A stretch of 64,000 nt of DNA from an uncultured Candidatus Melainabacteria bacterium (GTDB lineage: Bacteria > Cyanobacteriota > Vampirovibrionia > Gastranaerophilales > Gastranaerophilaceae): positions 1 to 64,000 of the forward strand of contig CATKZI010000006.1 of NCBI GenBank assembly GCA_949841365.1, given 5' to 3'. Positions 787 to 49,405 of the stretch are shown piece by piece. The position numbers and the translations under genes are program-made. Numbering within the stretch: the stretch's first letter is position 1; each line of letters begins with the position of its first letter. The notes under the pieces were generated by a model that searched no databases, was not told the origin of the DNA, and saw only the letters and a program-made list of their open reading frames with translations.

Positions 787-1320
787 ATGGTAAATTACGA
801 TGCACAAATAGGGCAAATGCCCGTTCCGTACACTACAATAAGCCCGTCAGGTTCTCGCAAAAGAAAAATCGGAGCAACACTTGCAGGCGCAATGATTGGC
901 ATGAACGCTTATTATATTCCGGTTGCAAAAGATTCATTTGTGAACAGAGCATTTGATTTAACAAAAAAAGAAGCTGATGAACAAATCGCAACACTAAAAT
1001 CTATAGCAGAAGAAGTTTCAAACGGAAATGTTTCAACAGAAAGCAAAATGATTTTACAAGATATGGGAATTGCTGAAGATGTCAGTGCAATTACAAATAA
1101 ATGTACAGCATTGGATAAATCTGTTTCAGACCCGACTGCAGTAAAAGCATTAAAACAAAATTTCAGCCGAAATTTTGCAAGCTACAAGAAAAATGCAGCA
1201 TTAATGGACAACATTTGCGCAAAAGCATACAAAGGCGTCAGACAAAATAAATTCAAATGGGGCGCAGGTATCGGCGCTGGCATAGGACTTGCACTCGGCT
1301 TAATGACAAGTAGAGATTAG
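787..1320 (+). CDS. Unknown protein with two glycine-rich hydrophobic segments
   Basis: A 177-aa protein I do not recognise. An AGAGGT-like ribosome binding site precedes the ATG. Residues 25-45 (KRKIGATLAGAMIGMNAYYI region) and the C-terminal tail (WGAGIGAGIGLALGLM) are hydrophobic and glycine-rich, like membrane or glycine-zipper segments. The middle is Lys/Ser/Ala-rich and probably helical. It follows tmk on the same strand. Its 3' end overlaps the convergent minus-strand gene by 21 bp with no terminator between them. A membrane-associated role is inferred only from composition. Confidence 0.6.
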   Translation: MVNYDAQIGQMPVPYTTISPSGSRKRKIGATLAGAMIGMNAYYIPVAKDSFVNRAFDLTKKEADEQIATLKSIAEEVSNGNVSTESKMILQDMGIAEDVSAITNKCTALDKSVSDPTAVKALKQNFSRNFASYKKNAALMDNICAKAYKGVRQNKFKWGAGIGAGIGLALGLMTSRD

Positions 1321-1926
1321 ATTACGAGAATTAATATCAATAACATTAAAATCCTTAAAGCTTGAAACAATCTTCACGTTTTGAGGATTTTTTGCATTCT
1401 CTCTTGCAAGCAATGCCCCGACAATTGCTTCCAGTTGTGACATCGGCATCATATTAGCAGGTAAATCCAATCCCCATTCATATCTTAAAGTCTGCTGTAA
1501 AAACTTGCAATCGGCAGGAGAACGTTCTTTATAACAAGAGTTCAAATTCATACTCTGACGGGTTAAATAAAGCTCAAACCTGTTAACTTCAATACCTTTT
1601 TCAACCAATGATTTAAAATATTCACACCCGCGGGTAGAATACCTCTGTGTCCAACCTTCACGATTGGGCATCAAAGGATTTGTTGCAACAAGCTGATAAG
1701 GTTTACCGAGGATTCTCCATTTACCGTTAAGCATTGTTCTATCCCAAACCAAAGACACGCAAATCTTTGAATATTTAAGCATCGGATAATTATCGAAAAA
1801 AAACATAACATCATTCATTGTGTAAAGTTTATCAACAAGAATTAAGTTATTATCTTCGTCCAAAACCGCAACTCCGCTGTCCATACCCGAAGATGCAGAT
1901 AATGCCAAACCTATATAATAATTCAT
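1300..1926 (-). CDS. Putative RNase H-like (DUF429-like) protein
   Basis: A 208-aa protein. The N-terminus YIGLALSASSGMDSGVAVLD looks like the first two strands of an RNase H/actin-like fold. The C-terminal helix SQLEAIVGALLARE resembles the end of DUF429-type predicted nucleases, where an acidic residue closes the active site. The family assignment is tentative. The gene starts 2 bp after map ends and probably belongs to the adk-map transcript. Its 3' end overlaps the convergent upstream gene by 21 bp. Confidence 0.5.
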   Translation of the reverse strand: MNYYIGLALSASSGMDSGVAVLDEDNNLILVDKLYTMNDVMFFFDNYPMLKYSKICVSLVWDRTMLNGKWRILGKPYQLVATNPLMPNREGWTQRYSTRGCEYFKSLVEKGIEVNRFELYLTRQSMNLNSCYKERSPADCKFLQQTLRYEWGLDLPANMMPMSQLEAIVGALLARENAKNPQNVKIVSSFKDFNVIDINSRNLISTCH

Positions 1927-1928
1927 CT

Positions 1929-2681
1929 TTACTCCATTAATTGTGTCATAATTAAAGGTTCATCATCAGTTGCTAAAACCGTATGTTCAAAGTGTGCGGA
2001 AGGTTTTCCGTCTTTTGTGCTTACAGTCCACTCATCATCTGCAACCACAACTTCATCACATCCTAGATTTAACATCGGTTCAATCGCAATGACGTAACCC
2101 TGTTTAATTAATGTATTATCGCCGACTTTGTAATTAAATAAAAACGGATCTTCATGCATCTCATGTCCGACACCATGTCCGCCGTATTGGCGAACAATAC
2201 CCATTTTTTCGCGAACTGCAACAGCTTCAACAGCACCTGAAATATCATCAAGAACATTTCCCGCTCTCATTTGCGAAATTCCCGCAAACAAAGCTTCTTC
2301 GGTAGTTTTTAATAATCTTTGAACCTCATCCGATACTTTACCGACAGGATAAGTCCAAGCACTGTCGCCAACCATTCCCGCATAAGTCGCACCGACATCA
2401 ATGCTTATGATATCGCCTTCTTTAACGGTTACATTTTCATGCGGAATTCCGTGGACAACCTGCTCGTTAATTGATGCACAAATACATCCCGGGAAACCAT
2501 GATAACCTAAGAAAGTAGGAATAGCACGCTCGCTTTTAATAACCTGCATTGCAATATCATCAAGTTCTTTAGTGCTTATACCGGGCTCTATAACTTCTCT
2601 CATTTTTTTATGAACAAGAGCTACAATGTGCCCTGCATGGCGCATTCTTTTAATTTCATCACGCGATTTTCTATGTATCAT
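1929..2681 (-). CDS. map: Methionine aminopeptidase, type I
   Basis: Removes the initiator methionine from nascent proteins. The five metal ligands are visible: two Asp (SIDVGA and VGDSAW segments), His in GHGVGHEMHEDP, Glu in IEPML and Glu in FEHTVL. From the ATG at 2681 the protein is 250 aa, normal for type I. This start overlaps the adk stop as ATGA. A start nine codons upstream would only read further into adk. The adk-map pairing is usual in bacteria, though here it is detached from the large ribosomal protein operon. Confidence 0.95.
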   Translation of the reverse strand: MIHRKSRDEIKRMRHAGHIVALVHKKMREVIEPGISTKELDDIAMQVIKSERAIPTFLGYHGFPGCICASINEQVVHGIPHENVTVKEGDIISIDVGATYAGMVGDSAWTYPVGKVSDEVQRLLKTTEEALFAGISQMRAGNVLDDISGAVEAVAVREKMGIVRQYGGHGVGHEMHEDPFLFNYKVGDNTLIKQGYVIAIEPMLNLGCDEVVVADDEWTVSTKDGKPSAHFEHTVLATDDEPLIMTQLME

Positions 2682-3406
2682 TTTATTACCTGCAATAATC
2701 TTTCCCAAACTTCATCAATTGTACCGTTTGCGTCAATTGATTTAAAAACACCTTTATTAGTATAGTACTCAATTAACGGAGCAGTTTCGTGCTCATAAGT
2801 ATCAAATCTTGATTGGGCGATTTCTCTTGTATCATCTTTACGTTGAGTTAATTCACCGCCGCATTTATCGCAAATTCCTTCAACTTTAGGAGCTTTAAAT
2901 GCAAGGTTGTAAATTTCACCGCATTTTGAGCAGGAACGGCGATTGACAATTCTTTCAACAAGAATACTTGTATCAATATCAAAATAAATTGCCATAAATC
3001 TGACCTGAGTTGAGCCGTTAATTTCGTCATTAATTTTTGTCAACTGTTCAGCTTGTTCAAGGCTTCTTGGGAAACCGTCCAAGATATAACCGTTTTTGCA
3101 ATCATCTTGAGACAATCTGTTTTTGATAATTCTTGACACAAGTTCAACAGGAACAAGATTACCTTTATCAATAAATTTTTTAGCTTCAATACCTGCAGGA
3201 GTTTCTGCTTTAATTTCAGCTCTTAAAAGCGACCCTGTATCAACATGCGGTAAGTTCATGTATTCGGCTAATTTAGTTGTCTGAGTGCCTTTTCCGCAAG
3301 CAGGAGGTCCTAAAAAAATCAATTCGGTTTTCATATTTTGTCTCTTTTCTTCGTTAATAAAATTATTTACCATATTAACGACATCAATACTTTTTGTTTC
3401 GTTCAT
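2678..3406 (-). CDS. adk: Adenylate kinase (possible 24-aa N-terminal extension)
   Basis: Converts ATP + AMP to 2 ADP. The P-loop is LGPPACGKGTQ, followed by the AMP-binding segment DTGSLLR and DGFPRSLEQA. The LID holds a four-cysteine zinc site (CSKCG...CDKCG), as in Gram-positive and some other bacterial enzymes. The conserved start is the ATG at 3334 (218 aa). The in-frame ATG at 3406 has the better Shine-Dalgarno (AGAGGA, good spacing) and would add 24 polar residues, so I report the longer form and flag the choice. The gene is translationally coupled to map. Confidence 0.9.
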   Translation of the reverse strand: MNETKSIDVVNMVNNFINEEKRQNMKTELIFLGPPACGKGTQTTKLAEYMNLPHVDTGSLLRAEIKAETPAGIEAKKFIDKGNLVPVELVSRIIKNRLSQDDCKNGYILDGFPRSLEQAEQLTKINDEINGSTQVRFMAIYFDIDTSILVERIVNRRSCSKCGEIYNLAFKAPKVEGICDKCGGELTQRKDDTREIAQSRFDTYEHETAPLIEYYTNKGVFKSIDANGTIDEVWERLLQVIK

Positions 3407-3454
3407 AATATCCTCTTATACAACAATTTTACATCAAGAATAATTAAATTCAAT

Positions 3455-3478
3455 AAAAAAAGCTCCTAAGAGCTTTTT

Positions 3479-3480
<2 letters not shown>
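3455..3480 (-). terminator. Rho-independent terminator of gyrB
   Basis: AAAAAAAGCTC / GAGCTTTTTTT hairpin directly at the gyrB stop codon. The U-run lies on the minus-strand transcript, and the symmetry would also let it act on the plus strand. Confidence 0.85.
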
Positions 3481-6052
<2,572 letters not shown>

Positions 6053-6166
6053 TTATTGTAACACAAACACATTTTTTTTGCTAATTTATGACAAAAAGTT
6101 AACCGTTTGTCGAATTAAAATTATTAAATTTCGATTTATACTCCGAATGAAAAAAGGAGAATTTAT

Positions 6167-6460
6167 ATGTCAAAAAACTTATTAAAATCAATCAAAAAAA
6201 TTACCGAAGAAGCAGGTACAAACAGTATTACTATTTTTACAAACCACTTAAAAATAGACGGTAATATATTTTTACCCGAAGGCAGATGTGAAGAATGCCA
6301 CGACGATTTTATTACACTTGAAAACGCGCTTGTATGCAGATTATCAGATTACTGCACCTGCAACGGTGATGACTGCAAATGCAACGACTATGTCTGCTTT
6401 AAATACGATTGGCTAAATATTGCAATTGATGAAATAGTAGCTTACAGTATTGTTCAATAA
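6167..6460 (+). CDS. Unknown small cysteine-rich protein
   Basis: A 97-aa protein with a strong AAGGAG site. Eight cysteines fall in residues 41-77: CEECHDD, then VCRLSDYCTCNGDDCKCNDYVC. The spacing suggests one or two bound metal ions or disulfides, but I recognise no family. There is no signal peptide, so metal binding in the cytoplasm is more likely. It stands alone between gyrB (divergent) and a convergent HD-GYP-like gene, and ends in a bidirectional terminator. Confidence 0.7.
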   Translation: MSKNLLKSIKKITEEAGTNSITIFTNHLKIDGNIFLPEGRCEECHDDFITLENALVCRLSDYCTCNGDDCKCNDYVCFKYDWLNIAIDEIVAYSIVQ

Positions 6461-6461
6461 T

Positions 6462-6488
6462 AAAAAAAGACCCTTTCGGGTCTTTTTT
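6462..6488. terminator. Bidirectional terminator
   Basis: AAAAAAAGACCC-TTTC-GGGTCTTTTTT between two convergent genes, with A-run and T-run on both sides so it works in either direction. Confidence 0.85.
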
Positions 6489-7719
6489 ATTTTACTGTTC
6501 TTGATAATGCAACAATTACAATCGGATCCCACTTTGTACCGGCTTCCGACTCCATAATTCCGACCGCCTTTTCAACAGACATTGCTTTTCTGTATGGTCT
6601 GTCGGATGTCATAGCAGCATAAGCATCTGCAACCGCAATAATTCTTGAACCGAACGGAATTGATTGTCCTTTTAAGCCTTCGGGAGCACCCGATCCGTCA
6701 TATCTTTCTTTTTGATATGTAATATACGGAACAACTTCTGATAAGAAGTTAATATTCATCAATAGGTGAACACCAAGATTTGAATGCTCTTGAATTTTTT
6801 TCAAATCCTCGGGAGAAAGTTTTCCGTTTGTCGCAAAAATTTCTTCAGGAAGCGCAATTTTACCGATATTTTGAAGCAATCCTGCGTAATATATCAAATC
6901 TGTAGTTTTTTCATTCAAACCTAATTGTTTGCAAATCTGTCTTGCAAGGTTTGCGGTATTTTGAGAATGTGAAACTTTATAACCGCCTTTGGTATCAACA
7001 GCATGTGCAAGATGTTCCACAAAACTTTGCTGATAATCACACAAGTCACCAATTAATGCTGTTAATTCAGCTCTTATATGCTGCAAGTCAGACGCCAATG
7101 AAGTTTCATCTTCAATAAGTTTATTTGTTTCGTCAATAGTTTGCTGCAATGTCATTGAAGTTGCAAAAAGAACTGCCATGCTCTCAACAAGCTGCAAATA
7201 TTCTTCATTAACTGCTTTTTCGGTTTCAAGAACAATTGCACCTACAGATTTAACATTACAGTGCATAGGAACTGCAATAACATCCTCAAACACAGTTTCG
7301 CGTGAAACAAATGCTTTTTTCGCAGTTTCCAAACCGCATCCGTTTGAAGTTGTACCTACAAGCTCCAAGTTATTATTCTTTTCCAAATAAATATGGCAAG
7401 CTCCAATTTCCAACATTTGCTTAATTGAATGCGCAATCGATGTATAAATTGCCTGTTCTTCGCTTGAATCAAAACTCAAAACACACAAAGTATTTTGTAA
7501 TGAATATATAGAAATCAATTCTTTTAATTGATTTATCAAACCTGCTTTTTTATCTTTTGAACTGTTACCTATTTTTCTTGCCAAATCTTCAGAAATAAGA
7601 TTTTCAGCCATAAAATCGCCTAAGTTCAGGGCAAAAAGTTCTTCAATAGGGTCTTGATCAATTAAATATTCAGACTGCGAAAACAGTGAGACACCATTAT
7701 TTTTCTCTTCTTTTTTCAT
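6487..7719 (-). CDS. GAF plus degenerate HD-GYP domain protein
   Basis: A 410-aa cytosolic protein: an N-terminal region, a GAF-like sensor at about residues 65-195, then an HD-GYP fold at about 235-405. HD-GYP enzymes hydrolyse cyclic di-GMP. Here the catalytic HD dyad (usually LLHDIGK) reads LLQNIGK, so it is Q283-N284. The HHE segment reads YQKE (335-338), and GYP reads GAP (344-346). His251, His312 and His318 remain. The fold is probably intact but catalysis unlikely, suggesting a binding or scaffold role. A promoter and a nested inverted repeat lie upstream. Confidence 0.8.
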   Translation of the reverse strand: MKKEEKNNGVSLFSQSEYLIDQDPIEELFALNLGDFMAENLISEDLARKIGNSSKDKKAGLINQLKELISIYSLQNTLCVLSFDSSEEQAIYTSIAHSIKQMLEIGACHIYLEKNNNLELVGTTSNGCGLETAKKAFVSRETVFEDVIAVPMHCNVKSVGAIVLETEKAVNEEYLQLVESMAVLFATSMTLQQTIDETNKLIEDETSLASDLQHIRAELTALIGDLCDYQQSFVEHLAHAVDTKGGYKVSHSQNTANLARQICKQLGLNEKTTDLIYYAGLLQNIGKIALPEEIFATNGKLSPEDLKKIQEHSNLGVHLLMNINFLSEVVPYITYQKERYDGSGAPEGLKGQSIPFGSRIIAVADAYAAMTSDRPYRKAMSVEKAVGIMESEAGTKWDPIVIVALSRTVK

Positions 7720-7788
7720 GAAATTTTCCTTACATACATGCCTTCATATTCTCTTACGGCACGACATGGAAAAAACTTTAATAAATTT

Positions 7789-7832
7789 TACAAAAGTTCA
7801 TACTTTAGTATGAATAAGATCAAACTTTTGTA
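7789..7832. repeat. Nested inverted repeat in HD-GYP 5' region
   Basis: A 10-bp arm TACAAAAGTT (7789-7798) pairs with AACTTTTGTA (7823-7832). Inside it lies the perfect palindrome CATACTTTAGTATG (7799-7812). It overlaps the -10 and start region of the predicted promoter for the HD-GYP-like gene. It could be an operator or a leader RNA hairpin; I cannot tell which. Confidence 0.55.
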
Positions 7833-7857
7833 TAAGAGGCTATTACCAACCTGTAAA
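7829..7857 (-). promoter_or_regulatory. Predicted promoter of the HD-GYP-like gene
   Basis: TTTACA (7852-7857), a 17-bp spacer, then TATACA (7829-7834) on the minus strand, about 110 bp upstream of the start at 7719. The leader carries the nested inverted repeat just described. The preceding stretch, 7862-7895, forms an AATCGGAT/ATCCGATT hairpin followed by a T-run on the minus strand and may terminate the upstream ftsL-like transcript. Confidence 0.5.
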
Positions 7858-7982
7858 AAACAAATCGGATATCCGGCTAATTGCAGAACATCCGATTATT
7901 ACGTTAAATATAATCATTAAATCTTTTTCATACTTCCAGCTATTCTTAATTCCAATGGAGTCTTTGGACTCCTTTTCTTTTG

Positions 7983-8429
7983 TTAATATCCGACAGCCCA
8001 ATTAAAAGAAGCGGTTTTTTGCGGAGTTGATACAACCGGAACTATAGAATCAACAGCCTGAACTTCAATAACTTTTTCAGCTTTTGAGAGCATGCTGTAC
8101 TGACCCATTTTGCTGTCAACGTTATTAAATGATTTTAATCTGTCTAAATTATTTTGCAATTCTGCATTTTCATCGTTCAAAGTAGTAATTTGACGGCTCA
8201 ATTTATTAAGAGCAAGTTCGTTTGACATCGCAAAATAGTAGCTTACAAATGCGAAAAGCACTGCAACACCTAATAAAGCACATAGAGTTTTATTAACTTT
8301 TCTGATTGCCATAGCTTTTTGCGAAATCTCCTTCTGAAAATAACCTTCAATAACCTGAGTTTCTATCGGATTGTTAACATAACCTGTCTGTGTAATACTT
8401 TCTTCTATTCTTACTCTAGCCGTATTCAA
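7983..8429 (-). CDS. ftsL: FtsL-like cell division protein
   Basis: A 148-aa bitopic membrane protein: about 45 cytoplasmic residues, one membrane segment (about 48-68, ALLGVAVLFAFVSYY), then a short coiled coil (KLSRQITTLNDENAELQNN). It lies directly downstream of rsmH, the usual place of ftsL in the division cluster. FtsL acts with FtsB in the divisome. The assignment rests on topology and position because FtsL sequences diverge strongly. The start is a TTG with AAGGGG about 9 bp upstream, overlapping the rsmH stop region. Confidence 0.7.
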   Translation of the reverse strand: MNTARVRIEESITQTGYVNNPIETQVIEGYFQKEISQKAMAIRKVNKTLCALLGVAVLFAFVSYYFAMSNELALNKLSRQITTLNDENAELQNNLDRLKSFNNVDSKMGQYSMLSKAEKVIEVQAVDSIVPVVSTPQKTASFNWAVGY

Positions 8430-8435
8430 ATTTTC

Positions 8436-9371
8436 TTACCCCTTAATACACCTTGCCACCCGAAGTTTTGCACTTCTTGACGGCGGATTTATCCTTATCT
8501 CCTCATCACTCGCCATTATCGGTTTCTTGTTTACAAGTTCCAGCTTTGGAGGCGGACAGTGGCAAATCATCTGTGATTTATCGCAATGACACCTCTGCGA
8601 GTGGTATTTGAATAAGTGTTTCACTAACCTGTCTTCTAACGAATGAAAACTTATTACACTTATTATAGCACCAAAGTCTAACAAATCCAACACATCATTC
8701 AGAGTATTTTTTACATTTGTTAACTCTTGATTTACTTCAATGCGAATTGCCTGAAAAACGCGTGTAGCAGGGTGAATTGAGGATTTTACATGAGGTGTGC
8801 AATTTACGATTAAATCCGCTAATTCCGTTGTTGTTTCAAGCTTTTTGAGCTTTCTTACATCAACTATTTTTTTTGCAATTCTTTTGGAAAATCTTTCTTC
8901 TCCGTATTCTGAAAAAATCCTTACCAAATCCTCTTCTGAGTATGTATTTACGACATCATAAGCCGAAAATTCGGCATCTTGATTAAATCTCATATCCAAA
9001 GGAGCTTCTTTCGAAAAAGAAAACCCTCGTTCGCCTTTGTGAAACTGATGATAAGATGCACCAAGGTCAAAAAGCACACCTCCGGTGATTTTTTCGATAC
9101 CGAGTTCGTGCAGGACTTTCTTAATATTTGTATATGAACTTTTCACGATTGTTAAATTTTTGTAATCTTTTAATCGTTCCGATGAAGCTTTTATCGCATC
9201 CTCATCCACATCAAAAGCAATGAGTTTTCCGTCAGGCTGAATACGGCTTAATATAAGCCCGCTGTGTCCGCCGCCCCCAAGTGTACAGTCGACATAAATC
9301 TTTCCTGATTGACACTCCAACGCATCAACGGCTTCGTTTTTCATTACCGTATAATGAGTAAATTCTTCCAT
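8436..9371 (-). CDS. rsmH: 16S rRNA (cytosine-1402-N4)-methyltransferase
   Basis: RsmH (MraW), 311 aa from the ATG at 9371. The SAM-binding motif VDCTLGGGGHS is near the N-terminus, followed by FDVDEDA. GGVLFDLGASYHQF and the C-terminal SFHSLEDRLVK signature are clear, as is the basic PPSRSAKLR tail. An upstream in-frame start adding nine residues is unlikely: a TACAAT -10 puts +1 exactly on the ATG at 9371, and no ribosome binding site is present. It is probably co-transcribed with the ftsL-like gene, 6 bp downstream. Confidence 0.95.
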   Translation of the reverse strand: MEEFTHYTVMKNEAVDALECQSGKIYVDCTLGGGGHSGLILSRIQPDGKLIAFDVDEDAIKASSERLKDYKNLTIVKSSYTNIKKVLHELGIEKITGGVLFDLGASYHQFHKGERGFSFSKEAPLDMRFNQDAEFSAYDVVNTYSEEDLVRIFSEYGEERFSKRIAKKIVDVRKLKKLETTTELADLIVNCTPHVKSSIHPATRVFQAIRIEVNQELTNVKNTLNDVLDLLDFGAIISVISFHSLEDRLVKHLFKYHSQRCHCDKSQMICHCPPPKLELVNKKPIMASDEEIRINPPSRSAKLRVARCIKG

Positions 9372-9377
9372 ACGGAA

Positions 9378-9386
9378 ATTGTAACA
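9378..9386 (-). promoter_or_regulatory. Extended -10 promoter of rsmH (leaderless)
   Basis: TGTTACAAT on the minus strand, six bases before the ATG. Predicted +1 is 9371, the A of the start codon. A weak TTTACA lies 19 bp further upstream. Confidence 0.55.
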
Positions 9387-9419
9387 TAAAAACATCAATG
9401 CCTGTAAAGTTTATCCAAA

Positions 9420-9445
9420 ACCCAATGTAGCTACGTGCGTAGCAC
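9420..9445 (-). repeat. GC-rich CTACGTGCGTAGC hairpin repeat
   Basis: On the minus strand GTGCTACGCACGTAGC follows the gltX terminator. The same core appears between the two nusG ends (28547-28563) and, in shorter form, at the rplL stop (48241-48251). It forms a short GC hairpin in otherwise AT-rich spacer. Confidence 0.5.
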
Positions 9446-9472
9446 AAAAAAAGCCCTTTAAAGGGCTTTTTT
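9446..9472 (-). terminator. Terminator of gltX
   Basis: AAAAAAAGCCCTTTAAAGGGCTTTTTT, a perfect hairpin with T-run overlapping the gltX stop codon. Confidence 0.85.
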
Positions 9473-10934
9473 ATTTAATTGCATCTTTAACACGTTTCAA
9501 TGATTTGTCTTTACCGAGGATTGCAAGCGTTGCTGTCATATCAGCTCCGCAAAGTCTGCCTGTTACAGCAGCTCTTATTGCCCACATTGTAACTTTTGGC
9601 TTGATGCCTTTTTCTTTGTATGCACCGCGGAACGCTTCAAGTTTTTCGTGCAGATTTTCTTCTGTCCACTCCCAATCTGCCGATTGTTCAACAAAAGTTT
9701 TCAAAACATCTTGAGAAATCTCAGTATCCAATGTTTCCTTTGCTTTTTCGTCCAATTCAACACCTTCGCCAAAGAAATAAGGAACGGCATCGGTAATATC
9801 AGATAACAACGTCAATGGTTCATAAGTTATTTCAACCATACGTGTATATTGTTCATCTGTCAATTCCGTCAAATCATATTTTGTCAAATACGGTTTTAAT
9901 CTTTCTTTCAATTCAGGGATAGAAAGCATTTTGATATAATGACTGTTCATCCAGTTCAATTTATCGTATTCAAAAATTGAATTTGATGATGAAATTTCAC
10001 CAATTCTGAAATCTTTTGCAATTTCATCAACTGTTTTAATTTCTTCTCCGTCAGAAGGTGACCAGCCCAACAATGCAACAAAGTTAATCAACGCATCTGT
10101 TAAATAACCTTTTTCAACGAATTCAGAAACCGCAGTTGCACCATGACGTTTTGAAAGTTTGCTTCTGTCAGGTGCTAAAATCATACCAAGGTGTCCAAAT
10201 CTCGGAACTTTTGCGCCCAAAGCTTCAAAGATTAAAATTTGTTTGAATGTATTTGAAATATGGTCTTCACCTCTGATAACGTGAGAAATCTTCATAAGCA
10301 TATCGTCAATTACAACTGCGTAGTTATATGTCGGAGCGCCGTTTGATTTCATGATTACGAAGTCGCCCAGCAAGTCAGTATCAACGTGAAGTTCACCTTT
10401 TACCAAATCATCAAATGTTAACATAGAAGTTTCGTGGAAAGCTTTTTGAGCTTTTGCAATATTAAATCTGATAGCAGGTTTTCTACCTTCAGCTCTGAGT
10501 TTTGCTTTTTCTTCTTCTGTCAAATTTTCGCATTTTCTTGTATAAACATAAGGTTTTTTATTAGCTCTTGCTTCTTCTTTTTCCTGTTCCAATTCTTCTG
10601 GAGTACAGAAACATTCATAAGCAAAACCTTTGTCCAAAAGTTCTTGAACATATTTAGGATAAATATCAAATCTTTCGGACTGTGTATATGGTCCATAAGG
10701 TCCGCCTACATCAGGACCTTCATCCCAATTCAAGCCCAATGCTTTCAAGCTGTCAAAAATATTGTCAATATACTCTTGACTTGTTCTGTCAGCATCTGTA
10801 TCTTCAATTCTTAAAACGAATTTTCCGTTATTTTTCTTTGCAAATAAGTAGTTAAACAAAGCAGTTCTAGCTGTTCCTACGTGTAAATTTCCGCTTGGTG
10901 ACGGAGCAATTCTAACTCTGACTTCTTCTGTCAT
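9471..10934 (-). CDS. gltX: Glutamyl-tRNA synthetase
   Basis: Charges tRNA-Glu and, in organisms that use GatCAB, tRNA-Gln as well. A gatB gene is present in this window, so a non-discriminating enzyme is plausible. Class I motifs are clear: the HIGH-type PSPSGNLHVGTART at the N-terminus and the KMSKS-type DRSKLSKRHG near residue 250. At 487 aa the length is typical. The start has GGAAGGATAT upstream. It is monocistronic with a strong terminator. Confidence 0.97.
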   Translation of the reverse strand: MTEEVRVRIAPSPSGNLHVGTARTALFNYLFAKKNNGKFVLRIEDTDADRTSQEYIDNIFDSLKALGLNWDEGPDVGGPYGPYTQSERFDIYPKYVQELLDKGFAYECFCTPEELEQEKEEARANKKPYVYTRKCENLTEEEKAKLRAEGRKPAIRFNIAKAQKAFHETSMLTFDDLVKGELHVDTDLLGDFVIMKSNGAPTYNYAVVIDDMLMKISHVIRGEDHISNTFKQILIFEALGAKVPRFGHLGMILAPDRSKLSKRHGATAVSEFVEKGYLTDALINFVALLGWSPSDGEEIKTVDEIAKDFRIGEISSSNSIFEYDKLNWMNSHYIKMLSIPELKERLKPYLTKYDLTELTDEQYTRMVEITYEPLTLLSDITDAVPYFFGEGVELDEKAKETLDTEISQDVLKTFVEQSADWEWTEENLHEKLEAFRGAYKEKGIKPKVTMWAIRAAVTGRLCGADMTATLAILGKDKSLKRVKDAIK

Positions 10935-11040
10935 CTTTATATCCTTCCTATTTTTTGCAACAAAAGAATATCACGCGCACAATAAATTTTCAACCCTTTA
11001 TACGATTTGACTAACATCTATAATGTTTTAAAATATAAAT

Positions 11041-11895
11041 ATGAAGAGAGCAATTCTGTTATTACTGACAATAATTCTGCTGTCCCCCGCATCATATTCG
11101 GCAAACAAAAAAATGATGCCGACAGTTTCTGACGGTGAAAATTTGCTCCCTAACATATTTATTTATGCGATACCCGATGATGATACAAAAGAGTTTAATG
11201 AAAACCTTGTTGAATATAAAGAACAGGAAGCAAATCAAGACGGTGAAATTATAATGCTTGAGGAAGAAAACGTAACCCTCGGTGCAACAACTTTAAAAGG
11301 CTATGCACAGTTCATTGAAGATGATGCGGTAATTCACCTTAAAGACAATGATAACAATTATGTTTTAAATATAAAAACACCACAAAAAATCGTGGCAGAA
11401 AAAGGATTAAATCTCGCGCACACACCGCAGAAACGAATTCAACAATACCGTGATGACGAATACCTCATAGCCCCAAATTCAATTAAATCTACGGGAAAAG
11501 CAGGAAACTTTACATTCGGTGCAACATACGGAACAGAAGTAGATAGTATAGCTATGCTTGAAACAGAAACAGGTCTGTTTACCAAATACGAAAAAAACAG
11601 ATTTGCAGTAAGTTCATCCGTAAAAAAATCACTAAATACAACATACGGGCTCGATTACAATACAATCTCAATTGCACCCGAATTAAAATTAAATGATTAT
11701 ATGTCACTCAAAAACGTATTAAGTGCCGACGTTACAAGAAACAGAAACTCTACCAAATTCGTATTTACTCTGAATCCGTTCGGAAAAAAAGATCGTGACA
11801 GGGTAGAACTTGAACTTGGCGCTAAACAGACGGTTTATATGGATACTGACTTCACAAAAACCGAATTCAGTTTCTCAACAAACTTTAAATTGTAA
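11041..11895 (+). CDS. Exported protein, probably beta-rich outer membrane type
   Basis: A 284-aa protein with a clear signal peptide (MKRAILLLLTIILLSPASYS, cleavage near residue 21). An acidic middle is followed by a C-terminal half of alternating hydrophobic and polar strands (FTFGATYGTE, ISIAPELKL, FVFTLNPFG, TEFSFSTNF). This pattern and the terminal strand resemble a small outer-membrane barrel, but the protein matches no family I know. A TATAAT lies at 11019-11024, giving a leader of about 10 nt. Genes for division and exported proteins follow. Confidence 0.65.
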   Translation: MKRAILLLLTIILLSPASYSANKKMMPTVSDGENLLPNIFIYAIPDDDTKEFNENLVEYKEQEANQDGEIIMLEEENVTLGATTLKGYAQFIEDDAVIHLKDNDNNYVLNIKTPQKIVAEKGLNLAHTPQKRIQQYRDDEYLIAPNSIKSTGKAGNFTFGATYGTEVDSIAMLETETGLFTKYEKNRFAVSSSVKKSLNTTYGLDYNTISIAPELKLNDYMSLKNVLSADVTRNRNSTKFVFTLNPFGKKDRDRVELELGAKQTVYMDTDFTKTEFSFSTNFKL

Positions 11896-11900
11896 ACTTG

Positions 11901-11929
11901 TTGTCTTACTGTTTTATTTCGTTTATAAT
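11901..11929 (+). promoter_or_regulatory. Promoter of FtsB/DivIC-like gene
   Basis: TTGTCT, 17-bp spacer, TATAAT. The start codon lies 17 bp downstream of the -10, with GTGAGG as ribosome binding site. Confidence 0.75.
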
Positions 11930-11945
11930 TTTGATGTGAGGTTTT

Positions 11946-12311
11946 ATGGCTGAAAATAAGGAAGAAATTGCAGTATCTAAATCTAAAACAGGCTTTTATT
12001 ATTCGTTTTTGACGATTGTCCTTTTGTTTTGCCTTATTCAGATAGGTTTTGGAGCAATTTTAAATATCTCTAAAACAATTTCTTACCGAGGAAAAATTTC
12101 TGTTTTAACAAAAATCAGAGATCATGCAGAAGCTCAAAACCACGATTTGAAAGAAGATATCAAACAATTCTCTTCAACACAGAGCTTGGAAGGAATTGCC
12201 AGAAACAACCTGAAAATGGCAGGCGAAGATGAAGTTTTGATTTTGATTAATAACAATCAGCCTCAAGCTCCTGCAAAGAAAAAACTTAAACACAAGAAAC
12301 GTAAAAAATAA
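11946..12311 (+). CDS. FtsB/DivIC-like septum formation initiator
   Basis: A 121-aa bitopic protein with a short cytoplasmic start, one membrane segment (about 17-42), a periplasmic coiled coil, and the conserved SLEGIARNNLKMAGEDEV segment of the FtsB/DivIC family. The C-terminal 15 residues are almost all Lys/Pro/His, a basic tail. It likely partners the FtsL-like protein encoded near 8 kb. The next gene starts 11 bp downstream, so the two form an operon. Confidence 0.8.
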   Translation: MAENKEEIAVSKSKTGFYYSFLTIVLLFCLIQIGFGAILNISKTISYRGKISVLTKIRDHAEAQNHDLKEDIKQFSSTQSLEGIARNNLKMAGEDEVLILINNNQPQAPAKKKLKHKKRKK

Positions 12312-12322
12312 CGGAAGTGCAA

Positions 12323-13891
12323 ATGCAAGAAACTATTGAATATATTAAACAGGCTTTTGAATTAAAATCACAGCAATGCTACAAACAGGCTATTGAAATG
12401 CTTTATAAAGCATTGGAACTTGAAAGCGACAATATCGAAATATTATTTCAACTCGGCGAGTTATACTTCCTGCTGAACAATTTTGCACGCTCACAACAGT
12501 ATCTTGAAAAAGTCCTTCTACAAAATGAAAATCACGTTGAAACTCTTGAAATTTTAGAAAAAATCTATGTTTATTCAAACGAACTTTCTAAGGCATTTTC
12601 AATTGCAGAGCGAATTTTTAACATTCAAAAAAATCAAAAAAGCATCTTAAAACTTATTGAAATTTCATCAAAACGCGGAGATTTGGATAAGGTGAGAGAA
12701 TTTGAAAATTCAGATGATGACAAAATTATTTATGAAATCGCAAAAGCTTATTATAATAATAAAAAGTTTGATGAAGCTAAAACAAAACTTGAACAGGCAC
12801 ATTCAATAAATCCTGATAATGAAGATGTTCAGGTTCTTTTAGGTAAAATTTATTTTGACAGAAGCGAATTTGATAAATCAAGAGAAATATTTAATAAGTT
12901 TTCAAAAACCTCAGAAAATCACGAGATTTTAAATTATCTTGGATTGTTTGCGCTCGAAGATTTAAACTTTATAGAAGCAATAAAATTTTTCTCTAAAGCA
13001 TCTAATTTAGATAAACAAAACGCTAAATACTGCTACAATCTCGGAAATGCATATTTCTATAACGGTTGGATTGACGAAGCCGTAAAAGCTTATCAAAAAG
13101 CAATCTGTATGGAACCGGATAACAACGGTTACAGATATTCGCTTGCATATCTTTATTTCGAACAAAAAATTTTTGATAAAGCACAAAGAGAAATAGATTA
13201 TATTCTTGAACAAAATGCAGAATATGCGCCTGCTCATGTTTTAAACGCACTTTTGAAATTTGAAAACAAAGATTTTCTCGGAGCAAAAACAGAACTTGAA
13301 CAAAACCTCAAAAACGGTAATGACGACAATTTTACACTTGTGTCGCTTGCAAAAGTTTATACGGAACTTTCAATGTTTGAAAAAGCTGAAAGCATATTAA
13401 ATACAGTTCTTGAAAGAAATCCGCAGAGTTTAAATTACAGGTGTCAACTCAGCAGTAATTATATTGCTCAAAAAAATTATGAAAAAGCACTTGAGATAAT
13501 AAATAACGTTATTTCGGAAAACGAAAATTATATTTGGGCTTACGCGCTCGGAGCAAAAGCTTCTTTGGGCTTAAATGATTTAGACAAAGCAAAAGATTAT
13601 GCACAAAAATCAATTTCTTTGGATATGAACTTTTCTGACGGATATTATTATCTTGCAACGGTAAGATTTGAGGAAAAAGATTTTGAAGAAGCCGTAGAAT
13701 GTATGAAACGTGCAATTATGTACGATATAAATAATGCTTCTTATTACGCAGAAATGAGCAAAATCTATAAAGCCCAAGAAGATTACAAAACAGCTCTTGA
13801 ATATGTTAAAGAAGCAGAAAGCATTTCAGGCAGTGAAGAATATCGAATTATGTATAAAGAACTTGCAGTTTTGACAAGAAAAAATATATAA
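12323..13891 (+). CDS. Tetratricopeptide repeat protein
   Basis: A 522-aa protein made almost wholly of TPR helices; about 13-14 units can be picked out by the W/L-G-Y-A-F-A-P pattern (for example CYNLGNAYFYNGWIDEA, AYQKAICMEPDN). It has no signal peptide or membrane segment, so a cytoplasmic scaffold is likely. The ATG at 12323 is preferred because GGAAG lies at proper spacing; a GTG two codons earlier is possible. It is probably co-transcribed with the FtsB-like gene. The partner is unknown. Confidence 0.85.
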   Translation: MQETIEYIKQAFELKSQQCYKQAIEMLYKALELESDNIEILFQLGELYFLLNNFARSQQYLEKVLLQNENHVETLEILEKIYVYSNELSKAFSIAERIFNIQKNQKSILKLIEISSKRGDLDKVREFENSDDDKIIYEIAKAYYNNKKFDEAKTKLEQAHSINPDNEDVQVLLGKIYFDRSEFDKSREIFNKFSKTSENHEILNYLGLFALEDLNFIEAIKFFSKASNLDKQNAKYCYNLGNAYFYNGWIDEAVKAYQKAICMEPDNNGYRYSLAYLYFEQKIFDKAQREIDYILEQNAEYAPAHVLNALLKFENKDFLGAKTELEQNLKNGNDDNFTLVSLAKVYTELSMFEKAESILNTVLERNPQSLNYRCQLSSNYIAQKNYEKALEIINNVISENENYIWAYALGAKASLGLNDLDKAKDYAQKSISLDMNFSDGYYYLATVRFEEKDFEEAVECMKRAIMYDINNASYYAEMSKIYKAQEDYKTALEYVKEAESISGSEEYRIMYKELAVLTRKNI

Positions 13892-13898
13892 TTATACT
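13871..13898 (+). promoter_or_regulatory. Promoter of secreted HExxH protein gene
   Basis: TTGACA (13871-13876), 16-bp spacer, TATACT (13893-13898). The -35 lies inside the last codons of the TPR gene. Confidence 0.7.
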
Positions 13899-13938
13899 AT
13901 TATTACAGATGTAATAAATAGTAAAAATGGAGAGATTA

Positions 13939-14619
13939 GTGGATATTAAGAAGATAGCAAGTATAAGCGCAATAGTTATTGCAATAGGCATTCCGACATT
14001 TGCCGCAAAAAAAGACGAACAACTTATTGAAATGCCAAAAACTTATCCCGCAAAATATACAGCCGAATATGTAAAACAAATTACTCCGTTATATAAAACA
14101 ACAGGCAAAGATGAAATTATTTATGTTGCACTGGATATGCTGAAAGGTACAAACGGAGAATTTTCAAGAAATGCACTATTAGGCAATAACTTATCGGGAC
14201 GCCCCGTTAAAATAGAATTTAGGGATTTGGGAACAATTAACCCTGATTATGCACAGTTTGATGCATTGGGCTGGAAAAAGAATAAACAGTTATTCGTATT
14301 TATTAACCCACGCCATAAAGATGCACCCCCCGGAGCGCTTGCCGCACTTCTTTCACACGAAGCACTTCATCAGGACGAATACAACTCAATAGCGGAAGAA
14401 ACTTATGCTTGGACGATGGAAGCTTCCGTATGGTACGAAATTGTAAAACTTTATCCTGAAAGCAACGATGAACTCCACCCGCTTGTTGTCAGAGAAAACA
14501 TGCTTAAAAAACTTTTTGAACGCGGAAATTACTCAAACAAATATATCAAAAAGACCGTAATTTCGAACGAAGGTTATAAAAATCTTCCTTCAACTTCACC
14601 CGGTTTTGAGGACATATAA
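13939..14619 (+). CDS. Exported protein with HExxH metallopeptidase-like motif
   Basis: A 226-aa protein with a signal peptide ending near TFAAKK. A SHEALHQDEYNSIAEE segment in the middle fits HExxH zinc metallopeptidases, with Glu residues 14-15 positions after the first His as a possible third ligand. The flanking FVFINPRH strand and following helix TYAWTMEASVW also fit. I recognise no named family. The GTG at 13939 is preferred because GGAGAG lies just upstream; an ATG at 13927 is the alternative. A periplasmic or surface protease is inferred. The ctpA-like gene follows. Confidence 0.7.
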   Translation: MDIKKIASISAIVIAIGIPTFAAKKDEQLIEMPKTYPAKYTAEYVKQITPLYKTTGKDEIIYVALDMLKGTNGEFSRNALLGNNLSGRPVKIEFRDLGTINPDYAQFDALGWKKNKQLFVFINPRHKDAPPGALAALLSHEALHQDEYNSIAEETYAWTMEASVWYEIVKLYPESNDELHPLVVRENMLKKLFERGNYSNKYIKKTVISNEGYKNLPSTSPGFEDI

Positions 14620-28374: not shown

Positions 28375-28430
28375 TTTTTTCTCCTTTTGTGGTACAAACG
28401 GGGGCGTCCCTTCCACAGTTTATGTATCAT

Positions 28431-28523
28431 CTTGCTCGCTCGCCCTAAACGGGTCTACAGTTGCCGTCTCAGATGACTTTGTCACCAAGCCGTCAAGCCT
28501 TCGCCCTCGGCTCGCTCGCGCTA
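28431..28523 (-). repeat. GC-rich 3'-end repeat, copy C (after nusG)
   Basis: Read on the minus strand it starts with TAG (28523-28521), the stop codon of a displaced nusG-like end, then CGCGAGCGAGC, GAGGGCGAAGGCTTGACGGC, a small TGAC-AAA-GTCA hairpin, GACGGCAAC, GTAGACCCGTTTA and GCGAGCGAGCAAGA. The same blocks in the same order occur at 29585-29681 and 37521-37619, with a diverged form at 43328-43423. Confidence 0.75.
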
Positions 28524-28547
28524 TAATTTGTTGATTTGTTTATATTC
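28521..28547 (-). repeat. Diverged duplicate of the nusG 3' end
   Basis: 27 bp that match the last 27 bp of nusG (28582-28608) at 22 positions. On the minus strand it encodes EYKQINKL-stop, the same peptide as the true C-terminus, with only synonymous changes and TAG in place of TAA. It lies 61 bp downstream of the real end, separated by a GC-rich hairpin stretch containing GCTACGTGCGTAGC. Confidence 0.75.
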
Positions 28548-28581
28548 GTGCTACGCACGTAGCCCTGCCGAACAATATCGG

Positions 28582-29220
28582 TTACAGCTTGTTGATTTGC
28601 TTATATTCTAATTCAACCGGAGTTTCACGTCCGAAAATTGAAACATTTGCACGAAGTTTTGATTTATCAGGATAAACTTCGATAATATCCGCGATAAAGT
28701 CTGCGAACGGACCTGATGTAATTCTGACTTTGTCGCCTGCTTTAACGTCAAGTTCAATTTTTTGTGAAGTTGAAGTTGAGCGGTTAATAATCTTTTTAAT
28801 TTCGCTGTCGCGTGCAGGAATAGGACGTTTTGCAGAGCCTACAAATTTTGTAACGCCTGAAGTGTGTCTTACAACATACCAGCTGTCTTCATCCATAATC
28901 ATTTCAACTAAAACATATCCCGGGAATATTTTTTCTTCACGTTCTTGTTTCTTACCGCCTTTTAATTGAGTAACTGTTTTTTGAGGAACTTCAATTCTGA
29001 AGATTTTATCCGCCATATTCATATACTCAATACGTTTTTCAAGGTTTACTTTTACTTTGTTTTCGTAACCTGAGTAGGTATGAACAATATACCAGCGTTT
29101 CTGGCTTTTTTTAGCTTTTTCTTTTTCAGCATCAGCTTGAGCTTGTTCTTCAGCTTCTTGTGCTTCTAAAGCTTTGTCTTCATTCAACTGTTCTTCCATT
29201 GATTTTTCTTTTTTAGTCAT
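28582..29220 (-). CDS. nusG: Transcription antitermination factor NusG
   Basis: A 212-aa protein. The NGN domain (RWYIVHTYSGYENKVK...FPGYVLVEM, VRHTSGVTKFVGSA) is followed by a KOW domain (KAGDKVRITSGPFADF). The first 40 residues are an acidic, Ala/Glu-rich extension not present in short NusG proteins; cyanobacterial proteins can also be extended. AAGGTGG precedes the ATG. Operon order secE-nusG-rplK-rplA is canonical. The 3' end is duplicated downstream (see the repeat entry). Confidence 0.97.
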   Translation of the reverse strand: MTKKEKSMEEQLNEDKALEAQEAEEQAQADAEKEKAKKSQKRWYIVHTYSGYENKVKVNLEKRIEYMNMADKIFRIEVPQKTVTQLKGGKKQEREEKIFPGYVLVEMIMDEDSWYVVRHTSGVTKFVGSAKRPIPARDSEIKKIINRSTSTSQKIELDVKAGDKVRITSGPFADFIADIIEVYPDKSKLRANVSIFGRETPVELEYKQINKL

Positions 29221-29584: not shown

Positions 29585-29681
29585 CTTGTCTTGCTCGCTC
29601 GCGTTTAACGGGTCTACGGCTCTGCTTGTCTTTGCCATTGCAAAGCCAACACCAGCCTTCGCCCTCAGCTCGCTCGCGCTA
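29585..29681 (-). repeat. GC-rich 3'-end repeat, copy B (after rpmG)
   Basis: On the minus strand it begins with the rpmG stop codon TAG and CGCGAGCGAGC, then GAGGGCGAAGGCT, a CTTTGC-AATG-GCAAAG hairpin, GTAGACCCGTT and AACGCGAGCGAGCAAGAC. It ends about 20 bp before tRNA-Trp, so it would be transcribed inside the rpmG-trnW-secE operon. Confidence 0.75.
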
Positions 29682-29846
29682 TTTAGTTTCCTTATGATTT
29701 GTATGTTTTTTGCAAGTCGGGCAGTATTTGCTCAACTCAAGTCTTTCTTTAATATTTTTTTTGTTTTTTGTTGTAGTGTAGTTTCTTTCTTTGCATTCTT
29801 CACATGCAAGAACTACCATTCTGTCATTTTTTCCTTTGATACCCAT
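29679..29846 (-). CDS. rpmG: Ribosomal protein L33
   Basis: A 55-aa protein too short for many ORF filters. The sequence starts [18 protein letters not shown] and contains two zinc-ribbon pairs (CEEC, CPTC), the C+ form of L33, then [16 protein letters not shown] precedes the ATG. The stop codon is the first codon of the adjacent GC-rich repeat. Confidence 0.95.
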
Positions 29847-37319: not shown

Positions 37320-37375
37320 CAAAAAAGTTCTTGCATTTTTTTTTTTAGCATATATAATAAAGAAGTGACCAATAT

Positions 37376-37450
37376 GGGAGCGTAGCTCAGTTTGGTTAGA
37401 GCGCATGCCTGTCACGCATGAGGTCGCGAGTTCGAGCCTCGTCGTTCCCG
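37376..37450 (+). tRNA. trnD: tRNA-Asp (GTC anticodon)
   Basis: A 75-nt cloverleaf. The acceptor GGGAGCG pairs with CGTTCCC (one G-U), the anticodon GTC is at 37411-37413 between GCATGC and GCATG, the T-arm has GAGTTCGAGCCTC, and the discriminator is G, as expected for tRNA-Asp. CCA is not encoded at this copy (AATT follows). The last 16 nt recur at 37620-37635, there followed by CCA. Confidence 0.95.
37435..37450 (+). repeat. Direct repeat, left copy (tRNA-Asp 3' end)
   Basis: AGCCTCGTCGTTCCCG, the 3' end of tRNA-Asp, identical to 37620-37635. The two copies flank a 169-bp insert containing a terminator and GC-rich repeat copy A, an att-like arrangement. Confidence 0.85.
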
Positions 37451-37489
37451 AATTAAAAAGCGGTGGGTTTTCCTACCGCTTTTTAATTT
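37451..37489 (+). terminator. Terminator directly after tRNA-Asp
   Basis: AATTAAAAAGCGGT / ACCGCTTTTTAATTT hairpin starting at the first base after the tRNA. Confidence 0.85.
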
Positions 37490-37520
37490 GAAAATGTTTC
37501 TGAGGCGAGAACATTTAAGT

Positions 37521-37619
37521 TCGAGCGAGGAGCGAGCGGAGTGCGAAGGCTTGACGGCAAAATGGCAAAGCCATTGTAGACGGCAACCGTAGACACATTT
37601 AACGCGAGCGACTCAAGAC
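37521..37619 (+). repeat. GC-rich 3'-end repeat, copy A (after tRNA-Asp)
   Basis: Plus orientation, same as the tRNA: TCGAGCGAGGAGCGAGCGG, GTGCGAAGGCTTGACGGC, AATGGC-AAA-GCCATT hairpin, GACGGCAACCGTAGAC, TTTAACGCGAGCGACTCAAGAC. Block order matches copies B and C. This is the main content of the 317-bp gene-free stretch 37451-37767, together with two terminators and the second tRNA-end copy. Confidence 0.75.
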
Positions 37620-37635
37620 AGCCTCGTCGTTCCCG
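37620..37635 (+). repeat. Direct repeat, right copy (displaced tRNA-Asp end)
   Basis: Identical 16-bp copy of the tRNA-Asp 3' end, followed by CCA (37636-37638) and then its own terminator. Confidence 0.85.
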
Positions 37636-37643
37636 CCATTATT

Positions 37644-37667
37644 AGAGGGTTTTAAACCCTCTTTTTT
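37644..37667 (+). terminator. Second terminator beyond the displaced tRNA end
   Basis: AGAGGGTTTTAAACCCTCTTTTTT. It may be the original terminator of tRNA-Asp before the repeat was inserted. Confidence 0.75.
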
Positions 37668-37767
37668 AATGCTAAAAATTATCAATAAAAATCAATCATT
37701 AACTTGATTTATTATCTGCCTCAAAAATGTATATTTAAAATGTAAAACAATAGTGAGGTATTTTATT

Positions 37768-43327: not shown

Positions 43328-43423
43328 GCGAGTCTTACTCATTCGCCTTAAACAGCATTCCGAACTTTGCTTCTGTGCTCCACACATTAGCAAAGTTGCT
43401 CCAGCCTCGGCTCACTCGCGCTA
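43328..43423 (-). repeat. GC-rich 3'-end repeat, copy D (after winged-helix gene)
   Basis: Starts with the TAG stop codon of the 43421-43627 gene, then CGCGAGTGAGCCGAGG. The middle differs from copies A-C and forms long arms AGCAACTTTGCT / AAGCAAAGTTCGG. It ends TGTTTAAGGCGAATGAGTAAGACTCG, a diverged form of the shared end block. Confidence 0.65.
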
Positions 43424-43627
43424 TTTAAGTCTTACGCTTACTGAAGTTCCTTTTTTAGAAATTTCAACTTTGTCTTCTCTAGCTAACCAGCCAAGACCTA
43501 AGTCTGCAAAGTTACCTTTAAGATCTAATTCTTTTTTCATTTTAGAGAAAGTAGCTTCCCCGTTATTGCTCAAATAATCATATATTTGACCAGCTGAAAA
43601 TCCGATTTGTTCTTGTAATTCTTGCAT
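43421..43627 (-). CDS. Winged-helix protein, DUF2582-like
   Basis: A 68-aa protein. IGFSAGQIYDYLSNNGEATFSKMKK forms the helix pair (split here by family position) and LGLGWLAREDKVEI is the wing signature of the DUF2582 winged-helix family. A role in DNA binding is presumed, not known. TGGAGG precedes the ATG. The stop codon coincides with the edge of repeat copy D. Confidence 0.8.
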   Translation of the reverse strand: MQELQEQIGFSAGQIYDYLSNNGEATFSKMKKELDLKGNFADLGLGWLAREDKVEISKKGTSVSVRLK

Positions 43628-49176: not shown

Positions 49177-49220
49177 GTTTAGCTCCTTTACTGTTTGTAC
49201 GACCCGTAAAAAATACAAAA

Positions 49221-49240
49221 AAGATTTTGCATCTTTACAT
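49221..49240 (-). terminator. Small attenuator-like hairpin in the rplJ leader
   Basis: AAAGATGCAAAATCTTTTTT on the minus strand: a 6-bp stem and a T-run, between the L10 leader and rplJ. Could be an attenuator or a processed leader stem. Confidence 0.45.
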
Positions 49241-49284
49241 AATTAGACCGCAAAATCAAACAAATCAATATTTATATTTCGACT

Positions 49285-49365
49285 GTTCAACCTCGGTTAG
49301 CTGGTCTTTTAAAGGGATTTTCAAAACCTGAGTTCCGCCACCCCTGCTAACTGTCTGCGGTATAA
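49285..49365 (-). ncRNA. Ribosomal L10 leader
   Basis: About 110-190 nt upstream of rplJ on the minus strand. The sequence ACCGCAGACAGTTAGC opens it and GCTAACCGAGGTTGAAC closes it, so GTTAGC pairs with GCTAAC, as in L10 leaders of many bacteria where L10(L12)4 binds this kink-turn-containing structure. GGTGGCGGAACTCAGG in between fits the family. Identified by position and motif, not by a covariance model. Confidence 0.7.
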
Positions 49366-49405
49366 TTTAATAATATATGAAAAATATTAAAATGCAAGAG
49401 TTTGG

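Follow-up and report, generated by a model that had tools for sequence, protein, structure and literature searches.

The tRNA-Asp locus

A short structured repeat lies at the 3' end of a tRNA-Asp(GTC) gene in this gut bacterium, and the same arrangement is found at many tRNA genes of its order, Candidatus Gastranaerophilales. In the window, which is the whole 64,000-nucleotide stretch of DNA that was analysed, the last 16 nt of the gene (AGCCTCGTCGTTCCCG) recur as an exact direct repeat (Table 1). The two copies are 185 bp apart from start to start, and the 169 bp between them are too short for any gene. The inner copy supplies the 3' end of the tRNA gene, which is therefore intact. The repeated end is only 16 bp long because no CCA follows the inner copy. 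An intrinsic terminator and a structured core, termed repeat copy A in the original prediction, lie between the copies, and a CCA and another terminator follow the outer one, all as that prediction had described.

The order of the unit is inner tRNA end, terminator, S0, GAGAAC with S2, loop, S3, core, CAAGAC(A), and outer tRNA end. S0 is antisense to the tRNA end, and S3 consists of a copy of the 5' strand of the T-stem plus GTTCGA. The unit in the window is a weak example of its family, with an S0 of 5 nt and an S3 that shares 2 stem bases. The AATTAAAAAGCGGT terminator is also present 3' of tRNA-Asp at three other loci (L002-L004). Rfam searches at the gathering threshold and at E<=1 returned just tRNAs, one ribosomal leader, and unrelated weak matches. 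The leader is that of ribosomal protein L10 (RF00557; window positions 49209-49378, - strand, 50.5 bits).

Table 1. Features of the tRNA-Asp unit and of the dispersed cores in the window
Feature	Position	Strand	Evidence
Dispersed core, nusG-rplK intergenic region, no link to a tRNA end	28428..28531	-	R1, 70.8 bits
Dispersed core upstream of tRNA-Trp	29587..29689	-	R1, 58.3 bits
tRNA-Asp(GTC)	37375..37451	+	ARAGORN 37375-37451; Rfam RF00005 37376-37450, 65.9 bits
Inner copy of tRNA-Asp 3' end (tRNA positions 58-73), not followed by CCA	37435..37450	+	Exact repeat; CCA at this point in empty sites
Intrinsic terminator of the inserted unit, AATTAAAAAGCGGT...ACCGCTTTTTAATT	37451..37488	+	Inverted repeat, 94% complementary, 4-nt loop
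S0 (GAGGC), antisense to tRNA end; complement of GCCTC at 37621-37625 in outer copy	37502..37506	+	Sequence; family permutation test
S2-loop-S3 hairpin, GAAC..GTTCGA; S3 mimics 5' strand of host tRNA T-stem plus T-loop	37509..37524	+	Alignments; permutation test
Structured repeat core (repeat copy A), 3' end CAAGAC at 37614-37619	37515..37619	+	Covariance model R1, 102.6 bits, E 2e-29; covariation
Outer copy of tRNA-Asp 3' end, probable displaced original	37620..37635	+	Exact repeat; empty sites L012, L019, L023, L024
Encoded CCA of the original tRNA-Asp gene	37636..37638	+	CCA after single copy in empty relatives
Original tRNA-Asp terminator, GAGGGttttaaaCCCTCttttt	37644..37668	+	Similar terminator directly after CCA in L019, L023, L024
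Dispersed core directly after a TAG	43331..43429	-	R1, 41.0 bits; sequence

Empty and filled tRNA-Asp sites

The tRNA-Asp locus was compared among relatives of the window's genus, in a set with one genome per species that consists chiefly of metagenome assemblies. In G011 (L012), where the upstream gene has 88% identity and the downstream region 85%, there is one copy of the tRNA end, followed by CCATTT and a terminator. Three further relatives, G020, G019, and G004 (L019, L023, and L024), have one copy, a CCA, and a terminator of the kind that follows the outer copy in the window. What sets the filled sites apart from the empty ones is the unit of about 185 bp between G73 and CCA, whose absence is clean and at the same base in the empty sites. 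The original prediction held that an insertion had created the second 16-bp copy, and this copy is missing from all four of these repeat-free relatives.

Since the repeat-free relatives have one copy, an encoded CCA, and the outer terminator of the window, the sequence comparison indicates that the outer copy with its CCA is the original tRNA-Asp end and that the inner copy arrived with the unit. The original prediction had allowed that the CCA might mark the original end or might be there by chance; the relatives encode it at this place, which speaks for the first and against the second. The empty site would then be the older state. Different core subtypes occupy tRNA-Asp in different genomes (three subtypes, at L001, L004, and L008), so repeated gains are favored. 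Single empty sites could be losses through recombination between the 16-bp copies.

A family of tRNA-linked units

The duplication at tRNA-Asp has counterparts at other tRNA genes of the same genome. For each of its 40 tRNA genes the best downstream match to the last 15 nt was determined. This match covers 12-15 of the 15 positions in eight genes and 7-10 in the remaining 32, so the duplication at tRNA-Asp is not a chance match. The eight genes are those for Asp, Gly(gcc), Ser(gga), Lys(ttt), Val(gac), Leu(caa), Leu(cag), and Ile(gat), with a degraded arrangement at the last. The original prediction had suggested looking for further insertions with duplicated ends in this genome, and with 8 of 40 genes they are indeed present.

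Among all loci read, 55 units lie 3' of 19 tRNA types, and each ends in the 3' end of its own tRNA. Five of the units are from Escherichia coli (three Arg and two Tyr), and the 19 types are complete without them. The median length is 188 bp. The duplicated part starts at T-loop position 59; position 58 is A in 46 of the 55 units, and this A is usually the element's own. The repeated tRNA end measures 15 to 25 bp in most units. A target-site duplication of fixed length was rejected, as the identity from position 59 onward is variable and in most cases spans 15 to 25 nt. CCA is found after the outer copy alone in 12 units, after the inner copy alone in three, and after both in 11. Tandem arrays of units are found at four loci (L045, L049, L076, and L123). 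A literature search found no description of such repeats in Gastranaerophilales.

The flanking pieces of the units are specific to the host tRNA. Over the 55 units, with kinship among them ignored, the fit of S0 to its own tRNA scores 263, against 233.5 for shuffled assignments (sd 5.9), and that of S3 scores 158 against 95.8 (sd 6.3); neither score was reached in 5000 shuffles. When each tRNA type is represented by a single unit, the scores are 54-61 against 34-37 for S3 (0 of 2000 shuffles) and 92-97 against 81-82 for S0 (0-8 of 2000). The core forms a long hairpin in which 95.5% of cells pair and 15 of the 26 pairs have two-sided changes. Its covariation score is 0.462, compared with 0.165 when shuffled and at most 0.098 when slid. 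The predicted fold is closed by S0 and the outer tRNA end in L031, L028, and E. coli tyrT and argQ. In the predicted fold of the window copy the 5-nt antisense of S0 is unused, and S0 and the outer end do not close it.

Occurrence and probable spread of the core

The core also occurs apart from tRNA ends. Covariance model R1 finds the tRNA-Asp core and three further copies in the window. Core-only copies are intergenic and are frequently located just past a stop codon. The copy between nusG and rplK is missing in five relatives (G011, G007, G015, G001, and G014), and comparison with these five empty sites revealed no clear target duplication. A separate repeat of about 35 bp (around GGCTACGTGCGTAGCACGAA) is found near nusG-rplK at window positions 28548-28582 (- strand); G009 has many copies of it and the window's genome has some.

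Within a genome the identity of cores, be they dispersed or at different tRNAs, is 78%, compared with 64% between genomes (0 of 1000 shuffles). At the same tRNA in different genomes the identity is 67%. When only tRNA-linked cores are considered, the values are 73% within and 65% between genomes (16 pairs). Because a core resembles those at other tRNAs of its own genome more than those at its own tRNA in other genomes, the core seems to spread and to adopt the end of each target tRNA. Gene conversion could also account for the likeness within genomes. Of 292 genomes of the phylum, 118 match the core model. With a single exception these belong to the window's family, and there was no match in the other classes of the phylum that were sampled. 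The core subtype of the window is thus not a feature of the whole phylum.

Comparison with known repeats and elements

A published study defines tRNA-linked repeats (TLRs) in E. coli K-12, 22 in number and distributed over ten loci, in which 18-19 bp equal the end of the upstream RNA gene and which have no known function (PMC8144298). The 178-bp repeats at tyrT have been known since 1978, and rrA, rrB, and rrF are transcribed, processed, and bound by Hfq and CsrA (PMC8144298). The comparison covered the 178-bp units of tyrT and tyrV (RttR/RtT RNA, RF00391), the argVYZQ cluster, and rrA, rrB, and rrF between the rrn terminators. The units at tyrT and tyrV of K-12 have their parts in the same order as the Gastranaerophilales units: GGGGAAGGAT, which is antisense to the end of tRNA-Tyr, then GAGAA, then a hairpin that ends in AAGGTTCGA, and, past the hairpin core, ATCCTTCCCCCACCACCA. 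In strain SK1144 both tRNA-Tyr genes are present but the units that fill these sites in K-12 are missing, and the boundary of the K-12 insert at tyrT is at position 59. A shorter form of this architecture is found at argVYZQ, and in rrnB the end of the 5S RNA is repeated between its two terminators. Of 5426 complete E. coli genomes, 729 gave no match to the RtT-type repeat, and the others have it at 1 to 14 places.

The E. coli TLRs resemble the Gastranaerophilales units in lying 3' of a stable-RNA gene whose 3' end is repeated at the 3' end of the unit, in forming tandem copies, and in varying in presence between strains. The tyrT and arg units share further details, as the repeat begins at T-loop position 59, an antisense piece precedes it, and a hairpin core lies between. 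The tyrT unit additionally has a GAGAA..GGTTCGA hairpin that carries the T-stem of its tRNA. The unit in the window directly adjoins tRNA-Asp on the 3' side, and its 3' end equals that of the host tRNA over 16 bp, compared with 18-19 bp in E. coli. By its anatomy it is a TLR. In contrast to the E. coli repeats, the Gastranaerophilales units often have an inner copy without CCA, carry a terminator beside the tRNA, use 19 tRNA types, and have dispersed core-only copies. Model R1 scores the E. coli tyrT copies at 6.4-8.3 bits (best E 0.23), which is not above background, and an Rfam search of five loci gave no RtT match.

The Gastranaerophilales units belong to a kind of repeat that is known but still unexplained, and are a more diverse variant of it. 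They represent a second TLR-like lineage, distant from E. coli, that occupies many tRNA genes, has clean empty sites and dispersed copies, and carries flanks specific to the tRNA. This provides a basis for comparative work on the movement of tRNA-linked repeats and on the reason for the tRNA end in them.

Other elements share part of this arrangement. Genomic islands and phages with T-loop integrases, such as Ms6, also restore the 3' end of a tRNA gene and leave the displaced fragment at their far end, but they usually span kilobases, carry an integrase, and have a fixed target, whereas the unit is 185 bp long, gene-free, and found at many targets. Casposons, which integrate by a Cas1-type mechanism at tRNA 3' ends, have terminal inverted repeats and a cas1 gene; the unit contains no gene. 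REP/BIME and other dispersed palindromic repeats are likewise short intergenic hairpin units that often lie right past a stop codon. Unlike the core described here they have no link to tRNA ends, and the Y1 transposase was not found in several carriers of the core.

Origin of the unit

The insertion of the unit and the rebuilding of the tRNA end are well supported. It is rather probable that a tRNA-linked repeat, gene-free and structured, entered tRNA-Asp at the T-loop, rebuilt the tRNA, and displaced the old end. The repeat would enter between positions 58 and 59. The unit would start with its own copy of positions 59-73, rebuilding the tRNA at once, and the terminator that comes next would allow the tRNA transcription unit to end properly. 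The antisense S0, the T-stem and T-loop look-alike, and the hairpin core ending in CAAGAC(A) would then lie beside the displaced end with its CCA and terminator. The core would be the spreading part, found as dispersed copies without a tRNA end and as copies 3' of many tRNAs; where it is 3' of a tRNA, the outer pieces of the unit match that tRNA. On transcription read-through S0 may pair with the displaced end and close a structured RNA, which the enzymes of tRNA 3'-end processing might trim. A mobility factor would be supplied in trans.

A wider possibility is put forward tentatively. The repeat may be refitted at each insertion, copying the T-arm and 3' end of its target in sense and antisense, so that it could rebuild any stable-RNA gene and move freely between tRNA genes. 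The E. coli TLRs, including that of the rrnB T1-T2 region, would move in the same manner and represent a further branch. If the unit does copy its target, its integration would be distinct from that of the integrases and transposases considered.

The main rival to target copying is selection for a role in RNA processing. On this account, which we regard as rather unlikely, the repeats do not move at tRNA genes; duplication of a 3' segment of the tRNA took place locus by locus, and the second end was retained as a functional part of a small RNA, where it pairs with S0 and is trimmed like a tRNA end, and the cores were homogenized by gene conversion. The E. coli repeats are transcribed and processed, and their repeated end has been proposed to be a signal for RNase E (PMC8144298). 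The closing of several predicted folds by the repeated end and the tandem arrays are also consistent with such a role. However, three core subtypes are present at tRNA-Asp, core-only copies have been inserted elsewhere and are missing in relatives, and the unit is cleanly absent, at the same base, from the empty sites, all of which speaks against this account.

The unit could also derive from an integrating element, as its remnant or miniature, and be moved by a T-loop tyrosine recombinase that a larger island supplies. This is improbable, even though the tRNA 3' end is directly repeated, the tRNA is restored, and relatives have islands at the same tRNA-Asp, one of them of 13 kb with a tyrosine recombinase-like gene (L043). 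The insertion, rebuilding, and displacement that the original prediction proposed are supported by the empty sites, but its minimal element, taken as one of the usual integrase type, is not. The 169 bp contain no integrase gene or any other, and the junction is CAAGACA rather than TTCGA, so that the T-loop itself is unshared. The right end of the tRNA-Asp islands is different (GTTCGAACCT..CCG), and no integrase-bearing element with a CAAGACA end was seen among the loci read. The T-loop integrase of Ms6 was confined to targets matching its 26-bp core (PMC1762012). An integrase with a fixed core fails as an explanation, since the 19 tRNA types carry their own ends and there is no single att core. 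An ordinary integrase is unlikely as the mover.

Movement by a single-strand (IS200/REP-type) transposase or a reverse transcriptase is very improbable; the hairpin core and its intergenic dispersal are as in REP-type repeats and enzymes of both families are present in the E. coli control, but searches of draft genomes, in which past loss is possible, found no Y1 transposase in G000, G002, G009, G020, or G021, each with many copies, and no reverse transcriptase in G002 or G009. The Y1 transposase was rejected as a helper because it was not found in several of these carrier drafts. Reverse transcription primed by tRNA and halting at position 58 was rejected as well, as the inner tRNA-Asp copy lacks the CCA of a mature primer and no reverse transcriptase was found in two carriers.

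Other insertions at tRNA-Asp

The tRNA-Asp gene is also a hotspot for islands. The 13-kb island of G022 (L043, positions 1114-14290) lies between tRNA-Asp and a displaced repeat unit and includes restriction-type genes in addition to the tyrosine recombinase-like gene. In G007 (L044) there is a 0.9-kb insert between tRNA-Asp and the displaced unit, with a gene that starts like a Clp N-domain protein. G028 (L025), from another family of the order, has a tandem unit of about 228 bp 3' of tRNA-Asp, with a different core; this unit repeats the tRNA-Asp end and the terminator that follows it.
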